Positions 2,790 to 10,661 of a stretch of DNA of 10,661 bases are shown here, piece by piece (the stretch's first letter is position 1; every line of letters begins with the position of its first letter). A model generated the notes under the pieces. That model was not told the origin of the DNA. It ran no database searches and was given only the letters and a program-made list of their open reading frames with translations. The position numbers and the translations under genes are program-made. The stretch is from contig DHDT01000020.1 in NCBI GenBank assembly GCA_002399505.1, positions 2,890 to 13,550 of the forward strand, written 5' to 3'. The stretch is from Caryophanales bacterium UBA4869 (lineage in GTDB: Bacteria; Bacillota_I; Bacilli_A; RFN20; CAG-288).

Positions 2790-4181
2790 TTACGCTGTCT
2801 TAACAGGAGTACTTATATCAGTTTTGAGGGAAATCTTCTCTTCGGGCGGTTCGCCTTTATAGAGAACCTTAAGAAGAATAGGTGTCAGGAAACTGGAAAT
2901 AAGAATGAGTATCAAGGTGAAGGGCATGATCTGAGAAGAAACTAATCCGGCTTCCACGCCCTTTTGGGCACAGACTATCAAGACTTCAGCTCGGGCCATC
3001 ATGCCAATGCCGATACGAAGACTGTCCTTAAACTTGAATTTAGACATCATAGCACCAGCTCCTGCACCGAGAACCTTCCCCGCCAGTCCCACTACTACCC
3101 AGACTAAGCCAAAGCCTAAGAAAGCCAAAAAGGAACTGTCAAACTTAGTCTGATACATCTCCATGGCAATGCTGGCGAAAAAGACTGGCGCAAAGATATA
3201 GTTGTTGGTAGTTTCAGCCCGGTGATCGATATAATCGGCCGGAGTTGTTCCGGCAAAGATAAGACCCATCAAGTAGGCGCCGGTGATATCGGCAATATTG
3301 AAGAACTCGGCCAGATATGACCATAAGAAACAGAAACCCAAGGAGAGAATAGTAATACGGATATGATGAGGATATTTGTTTCCGAGGAAGTTGAAGAACT
3401 TCTTTAGAACAATTCCTAAGACAAAAGTCAAAGCGAAGAAGATAAGCATGAAAAGGACAATCAGGAAGATATTCAAGGCGGCATTAGTTGAACCGGTGGC
3501 ATTCATAATCATGGAGACAAAGTCTTCGCCGCCCCCAGTCTGATTGCCGTTAGCCAAAGAAATAACAAGTGAAAGCAAGATGATGCCGATGATATCATCG
3601 AGGATAGCAGCACTGACTAAGGCAGTACCGACTCGAGAATCCAATCTGCCCAGTTCTTTTAAAGTGGCAACTGTAATAGAAACGGAAGTTGCGGACAAAA
3701 TAACGCCATAATAGATATCAGAATAAATAGGATTGATTCCCTTTTCAGTCATTGCCTTATAGAAATCAGTATCCAGTTCGCCAAAGGTTCTGAATAAGAA
3801 AGCGACCAAGAAACCTAAGGCCAAAGGAATCAGAACACCTAAAGAGGTGATGACAACAGAGGCTACACCTTCCGCCTTCACCTTCTTGATATCAGTCTCG
3901 ACACCCGCTGTGAAAAGAATCAGCACGACGCCGATCTTGGCAAAATAGCTGAGTCCGATCATCGTGTTGGAAGTCAGGACTGTTTGGTTCGGTATGAATC
4001 CAATAGCTCCGACAACTAGGCCGGAGATCAAAAATCCGACAACCTGAGGAAGATGGGCTTTGTTGAGTAAGAGAGAGAAGACTTTGGCAAAGATAAGAAT
4101 AAGACCTAACGGCAGCAGAAGCTTGAATGGCTCCAGGTTTTCTGAAGTCGAAGGAAAGCTAGTCAAAAAATCAAGTAACAT
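2790..4181 (-). CDS. Na+(K+)/H+ antiporter, CPA2 family
   Basis: This is a membrane cation:proton antiporter of the CPA2 (NapA/GerN/Kef-like) family, which exchanges cytoplasmic Na+ or K+ for H+ in pH and salt balance. From the ATG at 4181 it has 463 residues and about 12-13 membrane segments. The unwound TM4 region reads ATSVSITVATLKELG. TM5 carries AILDDIIGI with the Asp-Asp pair (D195, D196), typical of electrogenic members. LFTAGVETD and GMMARAEVLIV are also family-like. There is no C-terminal RCK/TrkA-N domain, which argues against a full Kef-type K+ channel-antiporter; the tail is only about 20 polar residues. An upstream in-frame TTG at 4205 would add 8 residues. That start is unlikely, because the ribosome site (AGGAGG, 4193-4198) lies inside the added codons and the -10 box lies just before them. 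The gene appears monocistronic. Confidence 0.9.
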   Translation of the reverse strand: MLLDFLTSFPSTSENLEPFKLLLPLGLILIFAKVFSLLLNKAHLPQVVGFLISGLVVGAIGFIPNQTVLTSNTMIGLSYFAKIGVVLILFTAGVETDIKKVKAEGVASVVITSLGVLIPLALGFLVAFLFRTFGELDTDFYKAMTEKGINPIYSDIYYGVILSATSVSITVATLKELGRLDSRVGTALVSAAILDDIIGIILLSLVISLANGNQTGGGEDFVSMIMNATGSTNAALNIFLIVLFMLIFFALTFVLGIVLKKFFNFLGNKYPHHIRITILSLGFCFLWSYLAEFFNIADITGAYLMGLIFAGTTPADYIDHRAETTNNYIFAPVFFASIAMEMYQTKFDSSFLAFLGFGLVWVVVGLAGKVLGAGAGAMMSKFKFKDSLRIGIGMMARAEVLIVCAQKGVEAGLVSSQIMPFTLILILISSFLTPILLKVLYKGEPPEEKISLKTDISTPVKTA

Positions 4182-4192
4182 ATAAGAGACGT

Positions 4193-4213
4193 CCTCCTGT
4201 AACAATCATTATA
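4193..4213 (-). promoter_or_regulatory. Antiporter -10 box and Shine-Dalgarno that decide its start
   Basis: On the minus strand a perfect TATAAT occupies 4213-4208, placing transcription start near 4201. A perfect AGGAGG follows at 4198-4193, 11 nt before the ATG at 4181. No good -35 hexamer sits 16-18 bp upstream of the -10, so the promoter may be weak or activator-dependent. A TTG start at 4205 would lie upstream of the predicted transcription start, so it is rejected. Confidence 0.6.
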
Positions 4214-4287: not shown

Positions 4288-4962
4288 ATGAAAAGAATCA
4301 ATATCAAGATAGAATCCTACTCCTTAAGCATCATCATTCCGGAAAATGCCGACCAAAAAACTATCTTTTATCTAAACGGGTATGACGGAACAGAAAATCT
4401 CATTCCTTTTCTTTCTGCTTTCGGATATCCGTCGGTCTTAATCGGAAACAACGATTATGAAAAAGACTTCTCTCCTTATCCTCACGCTCCAGTCTTCAAG
4501 GGCGGACATGAGTTTGAAGGCAAGGCAGCTTACTACTTGAAGACACTGACTGAAAAGATAATCCCCAAGGCTGAAAGCTATCTTTCCAATAAGCCGGAGA
4601 AAAGAGGAATAATCGGTTATTCATTAGCCGGTCTTTTCTCAATCTATTCTTTATACAACACCGATCAGTTCAGTCTCTTCGGGTCAGTTTCCGGTTCTCT
4701 TTGGTATCCGGATTTCATCTCCTATCTAAAGCAAAATAAAGCAAAGACCAAACCCGATCTCATCTACCTGTCTTTAGGAGACAGAGAAAGCCAGACTAAA
4801 AACCCTTTTCTTTCCAAAGCCGCTATTAAAACAGAAACGGCAAAAGCAGTCCTTGAAGAAGAAGGACCGGTTTTCTTTGAGTATAACGAGGGAGGTCATT
4901 TCATCGACTTTGATAAGAGGATAATGAAATGCCTTATTTATCTAGCAGACAGCTTAATATAG
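4288..4962 (+). CDS. Alpha/beta-hydrolase esterase, Fes/BesA/esterase-D-like
   Basis: This is a 224-residue serine hydrolase with an alpha/beta-hydrolase fold, probably a cytoplasmic carboxylesterase. The nucleophile elbow is GYSLAG (110-115), with S112 as nucleophile. The likely acid is D165 or E167 in LSLGDRES (161-168). The catalytic His is H204 in EGGHFIDFD (201-209), near the C-terminus as expected. The layout matches the predicted hydrolases of the alpha/beta superfamily that include the BesA/IroE-type esterases, but nothing nearby suggests siderophore use, so the substrate is unknown. Deacylation of esterified sugars is possible given the glycan-use neighbours. There is no signal peptide. 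The start is supported by AGG 6 nt before the ATG. It is the only plus-strand gene, and it converges on the ribonuclease-like lipoprotein with 9 nt between the stops and no visible terminator hairpin. Confidence 0.75.
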   Translation: MKRINIKIESYSLSIIIPENADQKTIFYLNGYDGTENLIPFLSAFGYPSVLIGNNDYEKDFSPYPHAPVFKGGHEFEGKAAYYLKTLTEKIIPKAESYLSNKPEKRGIIGYSLAGLFSIYSLYNTDQFSLFGSVSGSLWYPDFISYLKQNKAKTKPDLIYLSLGDRESQTKNPFLSKAAIKTETAKAVLEEEGPVFFEYNEGGHFIDFDKRIMKCLIYLADSLI

Positions 4963-4971
4963 AAGAAGAAA

Positions 4972-6042
4972 CTAGAGGGCTTTAAGGCTAGTTTCCGGAT
5001 AATCAGTGACATACTTACTTGTTGTTCCGTTATAACTGCCGCCGCCTTCCATATTGCCGAATCTCTTGCCCCAGCCATTTTCATAATTGAGGTATTCTTC
5101 AAAATCGTTATAGTGATTATAGGTATAGAAAACATGACGTTCATCGCTTGATGATATCCGGTTTCCGTTCCGATAAAGTCTTGTATAAACAAGTCTTGAA
5201 ACACCGCGGTTTATCTTTTTGCCGTTATTATAGACTCCGCTTCCATAAACATAGCTTTCCGTACATCCGGTTGTGCCGATATCAAGTTCGTAGTATTTCT
5301 TAGTCCCGTTGTTTTTTCCAGAATAAGCATCAGGAAGCTCAGGCTCATAGACATAATCTGTAGTATCATCACTGAAATAAGAATGATTGACACGAAGATA
5401 CTTACCCCAGGGCTCTGAAGAAATACCAGTAGTGTTGTCTTTGTCTTCATCATAATTTGCCGGTATATCTCCAAAGGCATAGACATAACTGGCCACTTCT
5501 TCTAAAGTGACATATGCTCCGCCTTTATAGATCGTATAGGCAGCAGTGCCATTTGCATCAATTACCGTATAGCTTTTTCCGCCGTCTCCATATCGGGAAG
5601 TGGTATTGCGGACAAAGAGGTTATTTTCCATAGGTCTCGAGGAAGAGATAGTGGCTTTATATTTCTGGTCGGAGATAGAACCCGACATGAAATTATGATT
5701 TGTACGGTAAATGGCATCCTGGAGAGAGGATGCTCTATTGTAGTTTTTATAAAACGCCGCAGATGTCATGTTTTCATAAGGGTCTTTATCTAAGGAAGGA
5801 ACAGATGAAGACGAAGAAGACGAAGAAGAAGAAGAAGAAGAAACGGAGGAGGAAATTGCATCGCTTGTTTTACTGGAATCAAGAGAAGAATCAGAAGAAT
5901 CAGAAGAATCAGTAACGGAAGAAGGGAGAGAAGAACTATTTTCTGTACTGTCACTTAAGGAACTGCTCACATTAAAGCCACAGCTTGAAAGAGAAAGAAA
6001 TACGACAGACGCTAAAATAGCAAGAAATTTAATGCTTTTCAT
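4972..6042 (-). CDS. Surface lipoprotein with Ser-rich linker and divergent barnase-type ribonuclease domain
   Basis: This is a 356-residue exported lipoprotein. Residues 1-20 are a lipoprotein signal peptide ending in LSLSSC, with C21 as the lipidated Cys. Residues 25-83 are a Ser/Asp-rich linker, including 13 consecutive Ser at 68-80. Residues 85-175 are an unrecognised region. Residues 176-320 resemble the microbial ribonuclease family of barnase by eye: TLEEVASYVYAFGDIPANY corresponds to the first helix and LPDNY loop of barnase. ELP then KKYYELDIG matches KLP then WREADIN, and RGVSRLVYTR followed by YNHYNDF matches RNSDRILY followed by TDHYQTF. The catalytic counterparts would be E252 (Glu73), R279 (Arg83), R283 (Arg87) and H310 (His102). 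Compared with barnase, the loops are longer before and after the Arg strand. It is the last gene of the GH13-ATPase-lipoprotein run, and no barstar-like gene is visible. Activity as a surface RNase for nucleotide scavenging or competition is inference. Confidence 0.75.
   Translation of the reverse strand: MKSIKFLAILASVVFLSLSSCGFNVSSSLSDSTENSSSLPSSVTDSSDSSDSSLDSSKTSDAISSSVSSSSSSSSSSSSSVPSLDKDPYENMTSAAFYKNYNRASSLQDAIYRTNHNFMSGSISDQKYKATISSSRPMENNLFVRNTTSRYGDGGKSYTVIDANGTAAYTIYKGGAYVTLEEVASYVYAFGDIPANYDEDKDNTTGISSEPWGKYLRVNHSYFSDDTTDYVYEPELPDAYSGKNNGTKKYYELDIGTTGCTESYVYGSGVYNNGKKINRGVSRLVYTRLYRNGNRISSSDERHVFYTYNHYNDFEEYLNYENGWGKRFGNMEGGGSYNGTTSKYVTDYPETSLKAL
5803..5841 (-). repeat. Serine-codon microsatellite (13 Ser) in the lipoprotein linker
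   Basis: This stretch encodes 13 Ser in a row, with TCT repeated six times at one end and mixed TCG, TCT and TCA codons after that. Because the unit is a trinucleotide in frame, slippage would change linker length without shifting the frame. Confidence 0.85.
5888..5912 (-). repeat. Short 9-bp tandem repeat, nearly three copies
   Basis: The plus-strand unit GAATCAGAA occurs 2.8 times without mismatch. In the gene it encodes the repeated Ser-Asp-Ser pattern of the lipoprotein linker (around residues 44-52). It is in frame, so copy-number change would only lengthen or shorten the linker. Confidence 0.75.
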
Positions 6043-6087: not shown

Positions 6088-6858
6088 CTATTTCCGTGTT
6101 ATTTTTTCGTTGTAAATAACATTGATCTCAGCAACGCTTTTCTTTTTAGAAGTCACATTATAGCTAGTCTCATCGACTTTTGTCACCATGCCGATATTAT
6201 TCATATAAGCGACTTCATCGACATAGCCTTCCTCATCGTCAGACTTGAAACCGAAATTATCGAGAGTATAGACAAAGACATCGTCTTCTACTTTCATATA
6301 ATCATAGTATTTGATCTTGGATTTAAAGAAATCAGCATAATAAAGACCGCCCGTATATAAGTTTTCGGTGACAGTCGTATAGAAAACCTTTTTGCTCTCC
6401 TCGATGATCTGGTCTTTAGTATAGAGAACCCGGGAAGAATAGGTTTTGATATCACCTTTTTTATCAGCGTTTTCATAGCCTTCCTGATAAAGTTCATAGG
6501 AAAAAGCCAAGTCGGCCTTTGAATATACGGTATAGGCAGTGGCCTTAGTGACATAGAGATGACTATTGGCATCTTGCGTAATCAAGTCACCGGTCATCTT
6601 CATCTCCGTATAGTTATAGTAGTCGCCCATATCGTTGCGGTCGACATTGATAGTAGTCAGATAAGTCCCATACACTTTTTCGTCTTTTGTCCCGATTATC
6701 GAATTGGTCCAGGTCGCAGAAATAGTCTTGACAGAAGAAAGAGCCTGCTTTAAAGAGCAGGCTGAAAGATAATCAGTTATTTCCGAAGGAGCGTTGATAG
6801 TGTTAGCGCAGGAAGAAAGAAGAAACAACGAAAAGAATAATGCTTTGCTGTTTTTCAT
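6088..6858 (-). CDS. Lipoprotein of unknown function
   Basis: This is a 256-residue protein that I do not recognise. Residues 1-16 are a short lipoprotein signal peptide with lipobox LLSSC, and C17 is the lipidated Cys, so it should be anchored on the outer face of the membrane. The mature part begins with a short helix-like stretch (about 35-48) and is then dominated by alternating Tyr/Val/Thr-rich segments that suggest beta-strands, as in half-barrel lipoproteins of the LolA/LppX kind. That fold guess is weak. The C-terminal pattern NNIGMVTKV followed by INVIY resembles the end of the upstream lipoprotein gene product. The ATG overlaps the TGA of that gene (ATGA) and has no clear Shine-Dalgarno, so it is probably translated by coupling. 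A role beside the sugar ABC system is suggested only by position. Confidence 0.7.
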   Translation of the reverse strand: MKNSKALFFSLFLLSSCANTINAPSEITDYLSACSLKQALSSVKTISATWTNSIIGTKDEKVYGTYLTTINVDRNDMGDYYNYTEMKMTGDLITQDANSHLYVTKATAYTVYSKADLAFSYELYQEGYENADKKGDIKTYSSRVLYTKDQIIEESKKVFYTTVTENLYTGGLYYADFFKSKIKYYDYMKVEDDVFVYTLDNFGFKSDDEEGYVDEVAYMNNIGMVTKVDETSYNVTSKKKSVAEINVIYNEKITRK

Positions 6859-7499
6859 GCCGAATAAGTGTAGGTAGATAAGATATCGACAGTTATGGAC
6901 TGACTGTCATCGGGAGTAGAACAGTTGGTGACTTTTTCAGTCTTCAAAAGTCCGTTTGATCCATAGACCAACTTAATATCAAAACGAGAATAGACTTCTG
7001 CTGAGGCAGCAACATCGGGATTGTTTTTATCGGTGTAGACATTGTAGAATTTCAAAAATTTGGAAACGCCGTTGATGAAGAAGACTAAGTCATCGCCATC
7101 CTTTTCAAATTCCATCTTATGGATTTTGTCATCGCCGCTTTCAAGACGGCTGATCAGACGATTATAAGAATAGGCAGTAGTGTCGGCATTTTCGTCAACA
7201 TCAGCAGATGGATAGAAGTTGTCAGCAGTCAAAACCATTGGAGTTCTAATCATATAGCTTCTATTAGTAGCCGTGTTAGTCACTCCATACTTTGGTATCG
7301 AAGAAGTTGATTTTGGTTCAAAGCCGGTAAAAGACGAGACGTGTCCTTCTACCTTGACATCATACTTTGTCTCGGTAAAGGCCGTGAGGGAAGAGACGGC
7401 TTCTTTGGCTTCGTTGAGTTCAGTTACACTGTCGACTCCCTGGCAGGAAGCGAGAAAAAGAAGAGGAAGGATAAAAATTGAAAGTTTATGATTCTTCAT
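6855..7499 (-). CDS. Lipoprotein of unknown function, directly downstream of the ABC ATPase
   Basis: This is a 214-residue protein that I do not recognise. The signal peptide runs to LFLASC with C19 as the lipidated Cys. The mature part has an initial helix-like stretch (ELNEAKEAVSSLTAF, 27-41), then alternating polar and hydrophobic segments consistent with beta structure. It ends with a YGSNGLLKTEKV segment followed by SITVDILSTYTY. It is far too small to be a sugar solute-binding protein (usually over 400 residues). Its start follows the ATPase stop by 10 nt, and GGAGGAG fills that gap, so it is co-transcribed and well translated. The stop is TGA, which overlaps the next start and shows that TGA is a stop codon in this organism. 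Confidence 0.72.
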   Translation of the reverse strand: MKNHKLSIFILPLLFLASCQGVDSVTELNEAKEAVSSLTAFTETKYDVKVEGHVSSFTGFEPKSTSSIPKYGVTNTATNRSYMIRTPMVLTADNFYPSADVDENADTTAYSYNRLISRLESGDDKIHKMEFEKDGDDLVFFINGVSKFLKFYNVYTDKNNPDVAASAEVYSRFDIKLVYGSNGLLKTEKVTNCSTPDDSQSITVDILSTYTYSA

Positions 7500-7509
7500 G
7501 ATCTCCTCC

Positions 7510-10065
7510 TTAATACAATCTGATATTCATACCGGTCTCCGTAATACGGGAACGGGCGATATCAAAATCCAATCCTAAGGTCTTGCCATCAGGGATCTTT
7601 TCATTGGTCTTGATGAACAGACACTGTTCATCTCCGTTGTCATCCTTATAGGTGGCTCGGACAAAATAGGTATTGTCTCCATAATCGAGGGTCTTGTTGA
7701 CTATGACTGAAAAGGAATTGCTCTTAGCTGACAAAGTATAAGCATCATGAGGGATTTCGATCAGGAATTCCTTTGAGAAGACACGGGTTCCTAAACCCTG
7801 AATCAGTTTGTTGGAGATGATATCAGTGGCCATCGAATAGTAGTCACCGGGTAATTTGAAGAAAAAGACTAATCCGGCACGCTTAACGGCATCAGCCTTC
7901 TGCTTTTGAAGGAGACTGAGCTTTCTATCATGTTCTTTTGTCAGGACCTTCAAAGGATTGACGATAGTCTGGTATTCGTTCTTCTTATCAGATATTTCCT
8001 TTCGGTAGAGTTCAACTTGTCTTCTCGTACCTGATTTGAGAGAGGATATTTCTGATTCATAATCCATGGTGACTCCGTTTATGAGATTGTTGAGTGTGTT
8101 CTCCTTATCAGTCTGGAAGTTATCTTTGAAGATATGATATTCATCGGTTCTTCTCTTGAGAGAATCCTTGTCTTTGTTGTTTTCCTTAAAAACTTTGAAT
8201 TCCTGTTCTTCGTTGTTCTTCTTATCGGCAAAGAGAGAGTCGTTCTTCGCTTTGAGGTCTTTCTTGGTATTAAGGAAAGAAGTCTTCTTTTCAGAAAGTT
8301 CCTTCTTGGTCTTCGCCTTCAATTCTTTGATGGCAGTCAGATTGTTTTCGCAAATAGTCTGATATTCCTCTAAGGCTTTGGTACCGACTGCATTCTTATC
8401 GGCGTTGGATATTTCAAGTTTTTTCTTATCAAAGTCTTGGTTTTCCAAAAGAATCTGAGCATCCATGAACTGGATGGCAGAGGCGATCTTGTCATCACGG
8501 AACTTCACATATTCAGGATCATTGTCTTTGGCAATGACAGTCTGATAATTGAAGAAAGTTCCTTTGAAGCTGTCGATTTCCGAGATAGGAGAAAGAATAG
8601 TGTTCTTATCAAAGACCAAAGTCATCTTCGTGAAATCAATTCCGAGACTGATGTTCTCACCGGGCTTATAAGGAGAAGGGGCAACCATAAAGAAAGTACG
8701 GTCAGAGGAAGAAAGATGAACGAGATTAGTAGTTCCGATAACCTCAGTCTTGATGACAGTGGCCTTTATTCCTTCTTTTCCGATTAAGAAACCATCGGTG
8801 GGAATACGAAGATCAGCATCTTTGATATCGCCGGTGCTTAAAGCCGGAGGAAGAATGATGTCAGATTGCAAGAACTTCAGATGATTGTCTTCGACCTGGC
8901 AGGTAAAGGAGTTATAGGAAGGAATACGGGGAACGACAGTATCTTCGCTCTTGTCATCAAAGAAATAGGCAAAATCCATATCAAATGAAACAGAAATAAT
9001 ATCACCGGGTTTGATGCCGTCAACCGCCATCACCTTGATGACAATAGTTCCCACTCCGTCAGAGGCGATAGAATCGGAATCAAGATTGACATTTCCGTAA
9101 ATAAGGCAATCGGCTCCCAATTCCTCAAAGTGGGAGACTCTTACTTTGACAGTCGAAGTATCCAAAGACGTGGCTAGAAGAATATGTTCGCAGCGGATAC
9201 CCATAGTGATATCGTGTTTTCCATCTAAGAACTGAGGCAGAACCTTGACAAGCTGATTGAAGGGAACGGTGAGTTTCTCGCCGTTTTCCTTCATAGAGAC
9301 AATGACTGAGTCTGCTTTCTTCAATAAAGTACAGTGGAAGAAGTTCATCTGCGGAGTTCCGATGAATCCGGCGACAAACTTATTGGACGGATAATCATAG
9401 AGGTTCTTAGGAGTATCGACCTGCTGTATGCGACCGCCCTTCATGACAACAACTCTATCACCTAAGGTCATAGCTTCAATCTGATCGTGAGTGACGTAGA
9501 TAAAAGTAGTCTTCAGTTTCTGATGAAGCTTGGCGATTTCGGTTCTCATCTGAGTACGGAGCTTGGCATCAAGGTTGCTTAAAGGCTCATCGAGAAGCAT
9601 GACTTTAGGATTTCTCAAGATGGAACGTCCTAAGGCAACACGCTGTCTTTGACCGCCGGACATATTCTTTGGACGTCTGTCAAGATAATCCTTGATTCCT
9701 AAGATATCAGCAGCCCAAAGGACCTTTTCCTGAATTTCATCATCTGGGACATGGCGGAGCTTGAGACCGAAAGCCATGTTTTCATAGACAGTCATATGAG
9801 GATAAAGCGCATAGTTTTGGAAAACCATGGCGATATCACGGTCTTTAGGTTCAACATCATTGACAATCTGATTGTCGATATAGAGTTCACCGGCGGTGAT
9901 ATCCTCAAGACCGGCGATCATTCTCAAGGTTGTGGACTTTCCGCAGCCGGAAGGACCGACAAAAACGACGAACTCGCCGTCCTTGATATCCAAAGAGATA
10001 TCGTTGACAGCTTTGGTTCCGTTAGGATAGACCTTGTAAATGTGTTCTAGTTTAAGACTTGCCAT
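7510..10065 (-). CDS. MalK/UgpC-like sugar ABC transporter ATPase with extra TOBE modules and a coiled-coil insertion
   Basis: This is the cytoplasmic ATPase of a CUT1-type carbohydrate importer, but at 851 residues it is more than twice the usual 360-390. Residues 1-235 form a complete nucleotide-binding domain: Walker [10 protein letters not shown] (37-45), Q-loop Q83, signature MSGGQ (135-139), Walker B LLDEP with E160, D-loop SNLD (163-166) and switch H193. Residues 236-378 form the usual MalK regulatory TOBE domain (GTPQMNF at 236-242, MGIRCEHI at 288-295). Residues 380-495 repeat a TOBE-like pattern that ends [10 protein letters not shown], then FDKN. Residues 518-703 contain no proline and are very rich in Lys, Glu, Asp and Asn, so a long coiled coil is likely. 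Residues 765-845 give a third TOBE-like segment (IEIPHD, then [10 protein letters not shown]). The start has AAAGGAG 9 nt upstream and lies 21 nt after the GH13 gene. Cargo is probably malto-oligosaccharide. All ATPase motifs are intact. Confidence 0.92.
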
Positions 10066-10086: not shown

Positions 10087-10661
10087 TTATGCTAAGACCG
10101 CCATCGAGAAAGGCGGGATAGTAACTTTCTTATCGGCATTCATAACCTTTTTGGGGGTCGACTCTAAGACAGCTTTGACTTCATAGTCACAGGAAGAATA
10201 ATCATATGTCCCATCTTCAGTATTTGAGAAGTTGATCACAATCTTGATTTTCTTTCCCTTATATTCCTTATTGATAGAAAGAAGAGGCAGAGAATTACCG
10301 CTCACCGACTTATTCAGTATATCAGTATCATCTGAGTCGAGAACCTGACCCCGGCTGACTTCAGGAAGGGAGTTGCGAATGAGGTTGGCTTTTCTGACGT
10401 AATTAAGTAGAGAGGAAGGATCACTTAACTGAGTGAGACTGTCTTTATAGTATTCAACTTGCGGATAAGCAGACTTAGGATCGTTGCATTCCATAGAATG
10501 AGTAGAATCATCCCAGTAATAATGAGTGCGGTAGTTAGCATCATTAGAAGGTGAATTTTCCGAGCTTGACATACCTATCTCATCGCCGTAATAAGTGAAA
10601 GAAGAACCGGTAGACATGGCAAGAAGACCTTGAATAAACTTAGCCGAAGTAGGGTCATTAG
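10087..10661 (-). CDS. Alpha-amylase family GH13 enzyme (partial, N-terminus off the right edge)
   Basis: This is the C-terminal part of a GH13 glucan hydrolase, such as an alpha-amylase, neopullulanase or alpha-glucosidase. The frame is open to the window edge, so the internal ATG at 10617 is not the start. About 190 codons are visible. The end of the catalytic barrel is recognisable as FIQGLLAMSTGSSFTYYGDEIGM-type sequence, equivalent to the widely conserved TPFIYYGDEIGM. It is followed by DANYRTHYYWDDS, DPSSLLNYVRKANLIR (helix 8 region) and a roughly 90-residue C-terminal beta-sandwich that ends PPFSMAVLA. The catalytic residues all lie outside the window, so specificity cannot be judged. 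The gene directly precedes the MalK-like ATPase by 21 nt, which supports a shared role in starch or malto-oligosaccharide use. Confidence 0.88.
   Translation of the reverse strand, partial: NDPTSAKFIQGLLAMSTGSSFTYYGDEIGMSSSENSPSNDANYRTHYYWDDSTHSMECNDPKSAYPQVEYYKDSLTQLSDPSSLLNYVRKANLIRNSLPEVSRGQVLDSDDTDILNKSVSGNSLPLLSINKEYKGKKIKIVINFSNTEDGTYDYSSCDYEVKAVLESTPKKVMNADKKVTIPPFSMAVLA

Follow-up and report, generated by a model that had tools for sequence, protein, structure and literature searches.

A predicted coiled-coil hairpin arm in the third regulatory module of a maltodextrin-type ABC importer ATPase

The window, which is the entire stretch of 10,661 nucleotides analysed here, encodes an ATPase of a maltodextrin-type ABC importer. 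Sequence comparison and structure prediction indicate with good confidence that its nucleotide-binding domain (NBD) is followed by three regulatory modules, and that a coiled-coil hairpin is inserted in the third of these. Across the relatives of this protein, a single armed clade, a nearly fixed length and conserved tip of the major arm type (type A), and a shared operon can be assigned with similarly good confidence from the same kinds of evidence. While the anatomy of the armed ATPase is well supported by prediction and comparison, the proposal that the tip of the arm docks on a specific partner, and thereby tethers or signals to the importer, is considered evenly balanced. The features of the ATPase are as follows:

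7510..10065 (-): MalK/UgpC-type importer ATPase with coiled-coil arm, 851 aa, on the basis of NCBIfam PRK11650, Pfam and PDB matches
9361..10065 (-): NBD, residues 1-235, on the basis of Pfam ABC_tran and invariant motif columns
8932..9360 (-): regulatory module 1, residues 236-378, an ordinary MalK OB/TOBE module
8584..8931 (-): regulatory module 2, residues 379-494, without Pfam match, assigned by profile comparison
8524..8580 (-): first part of regulatory module 3, residues 496-514, a strand preceding the arm, with an AlphaFold2 (AF2) strand at 497-506
7876..8517 (-): predicted coiled-coil hairpin arm, residues 517-730, from AF2, with the insertion site given by alignment
8086..8226 (-): conserved tip region, residues 614-660, with E619, N630-K631-D632, R639 and F646, from conservation counts
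7510..7875 (-): second part of regulatory module 3 (residues 731-851), closing with [11 protein letters not shown] and the stop codon, with AF2 beta structure

The ATPase scores 467.4 bits against the NCBIfam model PRK11650 (UgpC), above the curated cut-off of 432, and 413.7 bits against the E. coli-type MalK equivalog PRK11000, below the curated cut-off of 568. Pfam places ABC_tran at residues 20-162, with OB_MalK (35.2 bits; cut-off 27) and TOBE_2 (23.9 bits; cut-off 21) standing after the NBD, and matched nothing past residue 328, while the best PDB sequence match, 7x0q, extends over residues 1-378. The motifs GPSGCGK (37-43), SGGQ (136-139), D159-E160 and H193, which we take to be the Walker A, signature, Walker B and H-loop motifs, respectively, are intact and invariant among 81 aligned sequences. 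Profile comparison relates module 2 to module 3 (96.8 %, E 3e-10) and to module 1 (60 %, E 8.7e-5). The fold of the MalK regulatory domain is recovered in module 3 once the arm is set aside, and its two parts together align to MalK regulatory domains in structure comparison. In the alignment, the third module is shared by relatives of ~627 aa, in which a short turn takes the place of ~220 residues found in the ~845-aa class. The coil would therefore occupy the turn of this module's first beta-hairpin. Poor alignment in module 3 is seen at two loci of the ~627-aa size class (L052 and L056). The initial annotation had proposed that the coil may be an antiparallel hairpin inserted within the third OB/TOBE module; such a hairpin is indeed predicted, and is supported by the agreement of the arm-less alignment, AF2, structure comparison with both flanks and the module profiles. 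A Foldseek search with a fragment of the protein gave ModE (E 2.8e-05) and one sugar-importer ATPase, 2yyz (E 4.4e-4), as best matches. Its coil matches to SMC proteins, PI3K and designed bundles look generic. The PDB sequence search with the arm and module 3 yielded only marginal matches, to ATP synthase subunit 4 (3 sequences; best E 0.0025), and these are likewise attributed to generic coiled coil.

Residues 518-703 are free of proline, as had been noted at the outset, and are bounded by P517 and P704, where ~7.8 prolines would be expected at the frequency of the remaining protein. As an equally long proline-free run occurred in 122/5000 shuffles of the whole protein, the lack of proline is by itself only moderately unusual. 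The family-wide scarcity of proline is stronger evidence, with zero to three prolines in the arm stretch of 55/56 type A rows and six in one (L014, the arm of which contains an inserted domain). The charged and polar bias of residues 518-703 was likewise confirmed (K+E+D+N+R+Q 53 %, versus 32 % in the remaining protein). The span originally assigned to this segment, 7861-8514, encodes residues 518-735, with residues 518-703 occupying 7957-8514. Hydrophobic periodicity is consistent with helix over some stretches. The mean hydrophobicity of 78 aligned sequences (the query and 77 relatives) has a helical period of 3.7 over residues 518-610 (p 0.01) and 3.6 over 655-735 (p 0.001), but no significant helical period over 518-560, 560-650 or 575-650. 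In the query alone the period is significant over 655-735 (p 0.032) and not over 518-610. The proposed beta-type flanks are supported, in that AF2 predicts beta structure to either side of the arm and the family mean has a beta-like period of 2.2-2.3 in both flanks.

Two AF2 runs, one with the full protein (81 sequences; pLDDT 89.1; pTM 0.71) and one with a fragment (26 sequences; pLDDT 92.8; pTM 0.67), agree on helices at residues 517-553, 557 (or 560)-629, 633-702 and 704-730, although both are monomer models with common sequences and method, and so do not constitute independent proof. The AF2 alignment incorporated 57/61 database proteins (without P0001, P0045, P0051 and P0053) and part of the loci. 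As the helices flank residues 630-632, a single hairpin is predicted, comprising arm 1 (517-629), the turn (630-632) and arm 2 (633-730). A turn at 655-665, as suggested in the initial annotation, is rejected by its placement at 630-632 in both runs. The two long arms envisaged there are retained, but their estimated size of 90-100 residues and ~13 nm is revised to 98-113 residues, which at a helix rise of 0.15 nm per residue amounts to ~15-17 nm.

A protein search with residues 380-851, in which 7993 candidates (those sharing most words) were scored, yielded 61 proteins, comprising 58 of 841-881 aa, one of 800 aa and two of ~1030 aa. One database cluster among the relatives (P0056) alone represents 2003 sequences. 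Genome contigs were also scanned, and 80 of the 593 stretches confirmed in this way were retained; the ORFs of these 80 are mostly of three sizes, namely ~370, ~627 and ~845 aa or more. Armed loci numbered 75, which collapsed to 66 distinct ones. Besides the type A arms, a second arm type (type B) is found in eleven loci (L129-L139), with inserts of 166-233 residues at the same insertion site. The type B arms align poorly to type A and are devoid of the type A tip, and this retention of an arm without that tip speaks against a single universal tip partner. A GDLGK.GKK-like stretch recurs in several type B arms. In a quick maximum-likelihood tree on the basis of residues 1-500 (113 rows, taking in 8/44 short rows; LG+G4; SH-aLRT values, no bootstrap), the armed ATPases form one clade of 67 rows (56 type A and 11 type B; SH-aLRT 99) with no arm-less rows inside it, subject to the caveat that long arm-less branches meet in this tree. 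The arm-less rows nearest to this clade are those of L113 and L114, while within it type A has an SH-aLRT value of 92 and type B one of just 55. Since the arm-less sampling is limited to the reach of the searches, losses of the arm could have been missed.

A profile of the arm plus module 3 matched 77/279 genomes in the order of genome G003. These include 51 genomes matching along most of the profile (with shorter open frames in G331, G204 and G388), thirteen partial matches (the eleven type B loci, G012 and G286) and thirteen weak matches (twelve arm-less, and G369, where MalK is absent from the stretch examined). In the order of G001, 24/160 genomes were matched, sixteen of them along the profile, while in a thin class-level sample the window's own sequence matched 10/198. 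Two genomes (G570 and G536) harbour an armed and an arm-less triple-module ATPase together. Armed ATPases are found among Anaeroplasma bactoclasticum, Acholeplasmatales, Bacilli and Erysipelotrichaceae, and two armed records originate from goat rumen and roe deer omasum. The armed ATPases appear to occur in a bacterial group with several members from animal guts.

These distributions bear on whether the arm is a tolerated insertion without function of its own, or an artefact of gene fusion or assembly. The turn length varies among the arm-less relatives (roughly 6 to 35 residues, by eye) and the arm sequences vary fast, as might be expected of tolerated sequence. Set against this are the 61 database proteins with their narrow main size class and the dozens of genomes in which the arm is encoded, the existence of one clade without arm-less rows, and the conserved length and tip of type A, which together render this explanation quite unlikely. 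The occurrence in dozens of genomes also disposes of the concern, raised in the initial annotation, that the coil might belong to a separate gene fused by an assembly error.

The length of the type A arm is nearly constant. Between positions 505 and 729, the insert comprises 221-227 residues in 53/56 type A rows (which include the window sequence itself), 236 in two and 465 in one, while the lengths outside 221-227 among the database relatives are 180, 246-252 and 405-408 residues. The inserts of 405-408 residues, nearly double the usual arm, are those of P0051 (1030 aa) and P0053 (1035 aa). The tip residues E619 and N630 are conserved in 56/56 type A rows, D632, R639 and F646 each in 55/56 and K631 in 53/56. 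Mean information across the 56 rows is 2.58 bits in the tip (614-660), in comparison to 1.88 in arm 1 and 2.20 in arm 2, and the most conserved 40-residue window of the arm, which begins at residue 630, is equalled in 0/5000 shuffles. Weighted conservation in the 78-sequence alignment is 0.98 for N630, 0.81 for K631 and 1.0 for D632. An exact-spacing tip pattern matched 43/61 database proteins; given that K631 is weighted at just 0.81, this pattern is probably too strict at position 631. The end of the rod matters, either by binding or by making the turn. Tip conservation may reflect the hairpin turn, with E619, R639 and F646 placed where packing across the hairpin is possible. Alternatively, a conserved tip on an arm of ~15 nm suggests docking of the importer onto some cellular component. 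Counting against docking, the conservation of the tip is roughly that of module 3 (2.55 bits), and below that of module 1 (2.76 bits) and the NBD (3.99 bits).

Three further features of the window adjoin the ATPase gene:

10087..10617 (-): alpha-amylase-like gene, C-terminal part, read from the first ATG, with the frame open to the window edge
6855..7499 (-): lipoA, small lipoprotein-like gene downstream of malK, with a signal peptide and Cys motif by eye
6088..6858 (-): lipoB, second small lipoprotein-like gene downstream of malK, with a signal peptide and Cys motif by eye

Among sixteen loci compared (L001-L016), two permease genes are located directly upstream of the ATPase gene in 16/16, a gene of ~530-550 aa lies between the permeases and the ATPase in 13/16 (absent from L009, L010 and L012), and two ORFs of ~200-370 aa occur directly downstream in 16/16. 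The downstream ORF pair is lipoprotein-like where examined, and without Pfam match in the five tested. The window ends before the permease genes, and the permease evidence comes from these relatives: the MalF and MalG proteins of L001 both match BPD_transp_1 above the cut-off, and the same clusters are found in 16/16 loci. In L001, the gene between the permeases and the ATPase codes for a GH13 amylase that begins like a lipoprotein; the malE position (L001:2521-3810) is occupied by a lipoprotein-like gene without Pfam match. In the window, the product of 10087..10617 scores 21.8 bits against Alpha-amylase, just below the cut-off of 22, and matches the N-terminal model of TreS (E 2.9e-08) with a score well short of the cut-off for that model. 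It clusters (c0) with the GH13 gene L001:6355-7986, in a cluster which also includes malE-like genes. The lipoA and lipoB products have no Pfam match and belong to clusters c10 and c11, respectively, with proteins of L001-L003. Nearby genes code for a 4-alpha-glucanotransferase in L001, and for a pullulanase-like protein and a CBM26 protein in L004. On the basis of these neighbour genes and the kinship to MalK, maltodextrin is the probable substrate. MalF is present at 74/75 armed loci, the exception (L132) ending at the contig end. One standout MalG match (289-720 bits) was obtained in each of 6/6 armed genomes, the runner-up scoring 185.7 bits in G001 and below 80 bits elsewhere, and G003 and G005 each hold one MalK match above 300 bits. 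The armed ATPase appears to serve an importer of its own, which counts in favour of the docking proposal.

Elsewhere in the window, a lipoprotein-like ORF with a long serine-rich stretch (4972-6042) has no Pfam match over the cut-off. A partial glycoside hydrolase family 2 gene (2-1297, (-) strand; Glyco_hydro_2_N, E 8.7e-09) is present, and genes for a putative esterase (4288-4962, (+) strand), a Na/H exchanger (2790-4205, (-) strand) and an MFS transporter (1281-2681, (-) strand) lie beside the operon.

In the docking proposal, a single MalK regulatory domain would have become three in tandem, after which the beta-hairpin turn of the third module would have gained a coiled-coil hairpin ~15 nm long. 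The third module would hold the base of the arm, and the two arms would form a rod of nearly fixed length, the conserved tip of which would dock with a particular partner at a defined distance. Such docking would tether the importer, or signal to it via the regulatory modules. The regulatory domains of E. coli MalK are docking sites for regulators, and the arm could by extension tether the importer to HPr of the PTS, or to a cytoskeleton formed by MreB. HPr is present in 11/32 armed genomes and was not found in the remaining 21 drafts, with 7/14 genomes positive in the HPr control. MreB matches over the family cut-off occur in 32/32 armed genomes, yet exceed 200 bits in just eight. The best matches in the other 24 genomes score 27-82 bits; most of them fall in frames of 540-640 aa and presumably represent DnaK/Hsp70 proteins of the same fold. 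Thus the cytoskeletal tether put forward in the initial annotation does not look general in its MreB form, with true-size matches in 8/32 armed genomes. As most of the armed genomes tested seem to be without them, either protein is very improbable as the partner, although the genomes are drafts of unstated completeness and single absences therefore prove little. The MalQ family is represented in 30/32 armed genomes, which neither supports nor excludes MalQ as partner.

Coiled coils often self-associate, and the arms of neighbouring importers might instead pair via their tips, clustering transporters in the membrane. A rod of near-fixed length with a conserved end fits such pairing, but no result of this analysis supports it, and self-association is deemed unlikely.

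A more serious alternative, although still a rather doubtful one, is that the arm is an internal brace which folds back onto the sister MalK, or onto an unusual, cytoplasmic N-terminal extension of its own MalF, and tunes the opening of the ATPase dimer without an outside partner. The MalF proteins of armed operons start with a conserved motif (e.g. TTIEYLSLSKPxR) and amphipathic stretches before the first membrane helix, as would suit this role; examples are the MalF genes L001:3887-5464, L002:3747-5339 and L013:3913-5466. A profile of the motif, built from type A, matched 63/64 type A (by construction; the single miss, L154, is cut at the contig end), 9/10 type B, 6/25 arm-less and 0/1 short loci. 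However, with the motif found in arm-less operons and alongside type B arms, which do not have the tip, it may only track the clade. Furthermore, co-variation of the tip with the motif is weak and not specific (partial r 0.21, versus 0.19 for module 3; 54 loci), when controlled for NBD, MalG and mid-MalF distances. From this correlation and the distribution of the motif, the MalF N-terminal motif is not supported as the partner of the tip. The brace is also favoured by the ATPase of L014 (L014:8001-11267; 1088 aa), in which residues 554-791, inside the first arm, match DUF6693 and DUF898 (E 4.4e-22 and 2.1e-20, respectively). This inserted domain is located in arm 1 ~40 residues from the base and has four hydrophobic segments, which suggests a possible position close to the membrane for that portion of the arm. 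The flanks of the insertion are 89 % and 77 % identical to L093, which is without the inserted domain. Against this weigh the long linkers in L014 and its derivation from one draft genome. Returning to the docking proposal, its furthest extension is a new class of ABC importer, in which the ATPase docks through an arm with a fixed reach and so links maltodextrin uptake to a membrane-near or cytoplasmic partner, perhaps with a membrane-anchored arm in L014, and with gating or positioning via the third module. This extension is tentative.

The regulatory domain of MalK is a known control site of sugar uptake. Importer ATPases are usually drawn as compact blocks, while one lineage appears to have multiplied the regulatory domain, built a rod of ~15 nm and kept its length and tip. 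If the arm docks, this would represent a new way of placing or gating an ABC importer, and the short turn that is tolerated in place of the arm can be read from the arm-less relatives. In the open-licence PMC literature surveyed, a scope outside which most subscription papers fall, no description of such an arm on an importer ATPase was found. Parts of the paper on MsmX (PMC7658222) describe the regulatory domain as the most diverse and regulatory part of the ATPase.

The NBD and first OB/TOBE module are shared with MsmX of B. subtilis (6yir), Clo1313_2554 of C. thermocellum (7x0q) and E. coli MalK, with the query 54 % and 58 % identical to 6yir and 7x0q, respectively, over ~360 aligned residues. 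The chains of these three proteins comprise ~360-375 residues, have a single regulatory module and lack a coil, whereas the query has three predicted modules and a 214-residue arm. The arm-less relatives of ~627 aa (e.g. L017-L031, L113 and L114), for which no family name was found, have three modules in the same order as the query and a short turn at the site of the arm. A coiled coil linked to an ABC system is also present in FtsE/FtsX/EnvC, for which there is a weak Foldseek match (8tzl_E; E 8.1e-3; probability 0.33), but there the coiled coil belongs to a separate, extracytoplasmic protein and not to the ATPase. The ABC-F, SMC/Rad50 and seryl-tRNA synthetase proteins resemble the query in that a core enzyme or ATPase carries a hairpin, and their coiled-coil hairpins bind through their tips. 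The matches to SMC segments are weak and generic in fold, and the hairpin of the query, unlike those of ABC-F, SMC and seryl-tRNA synthetase, is predicted to leave the third regulatory OB/TOBE module of a membrane importer.
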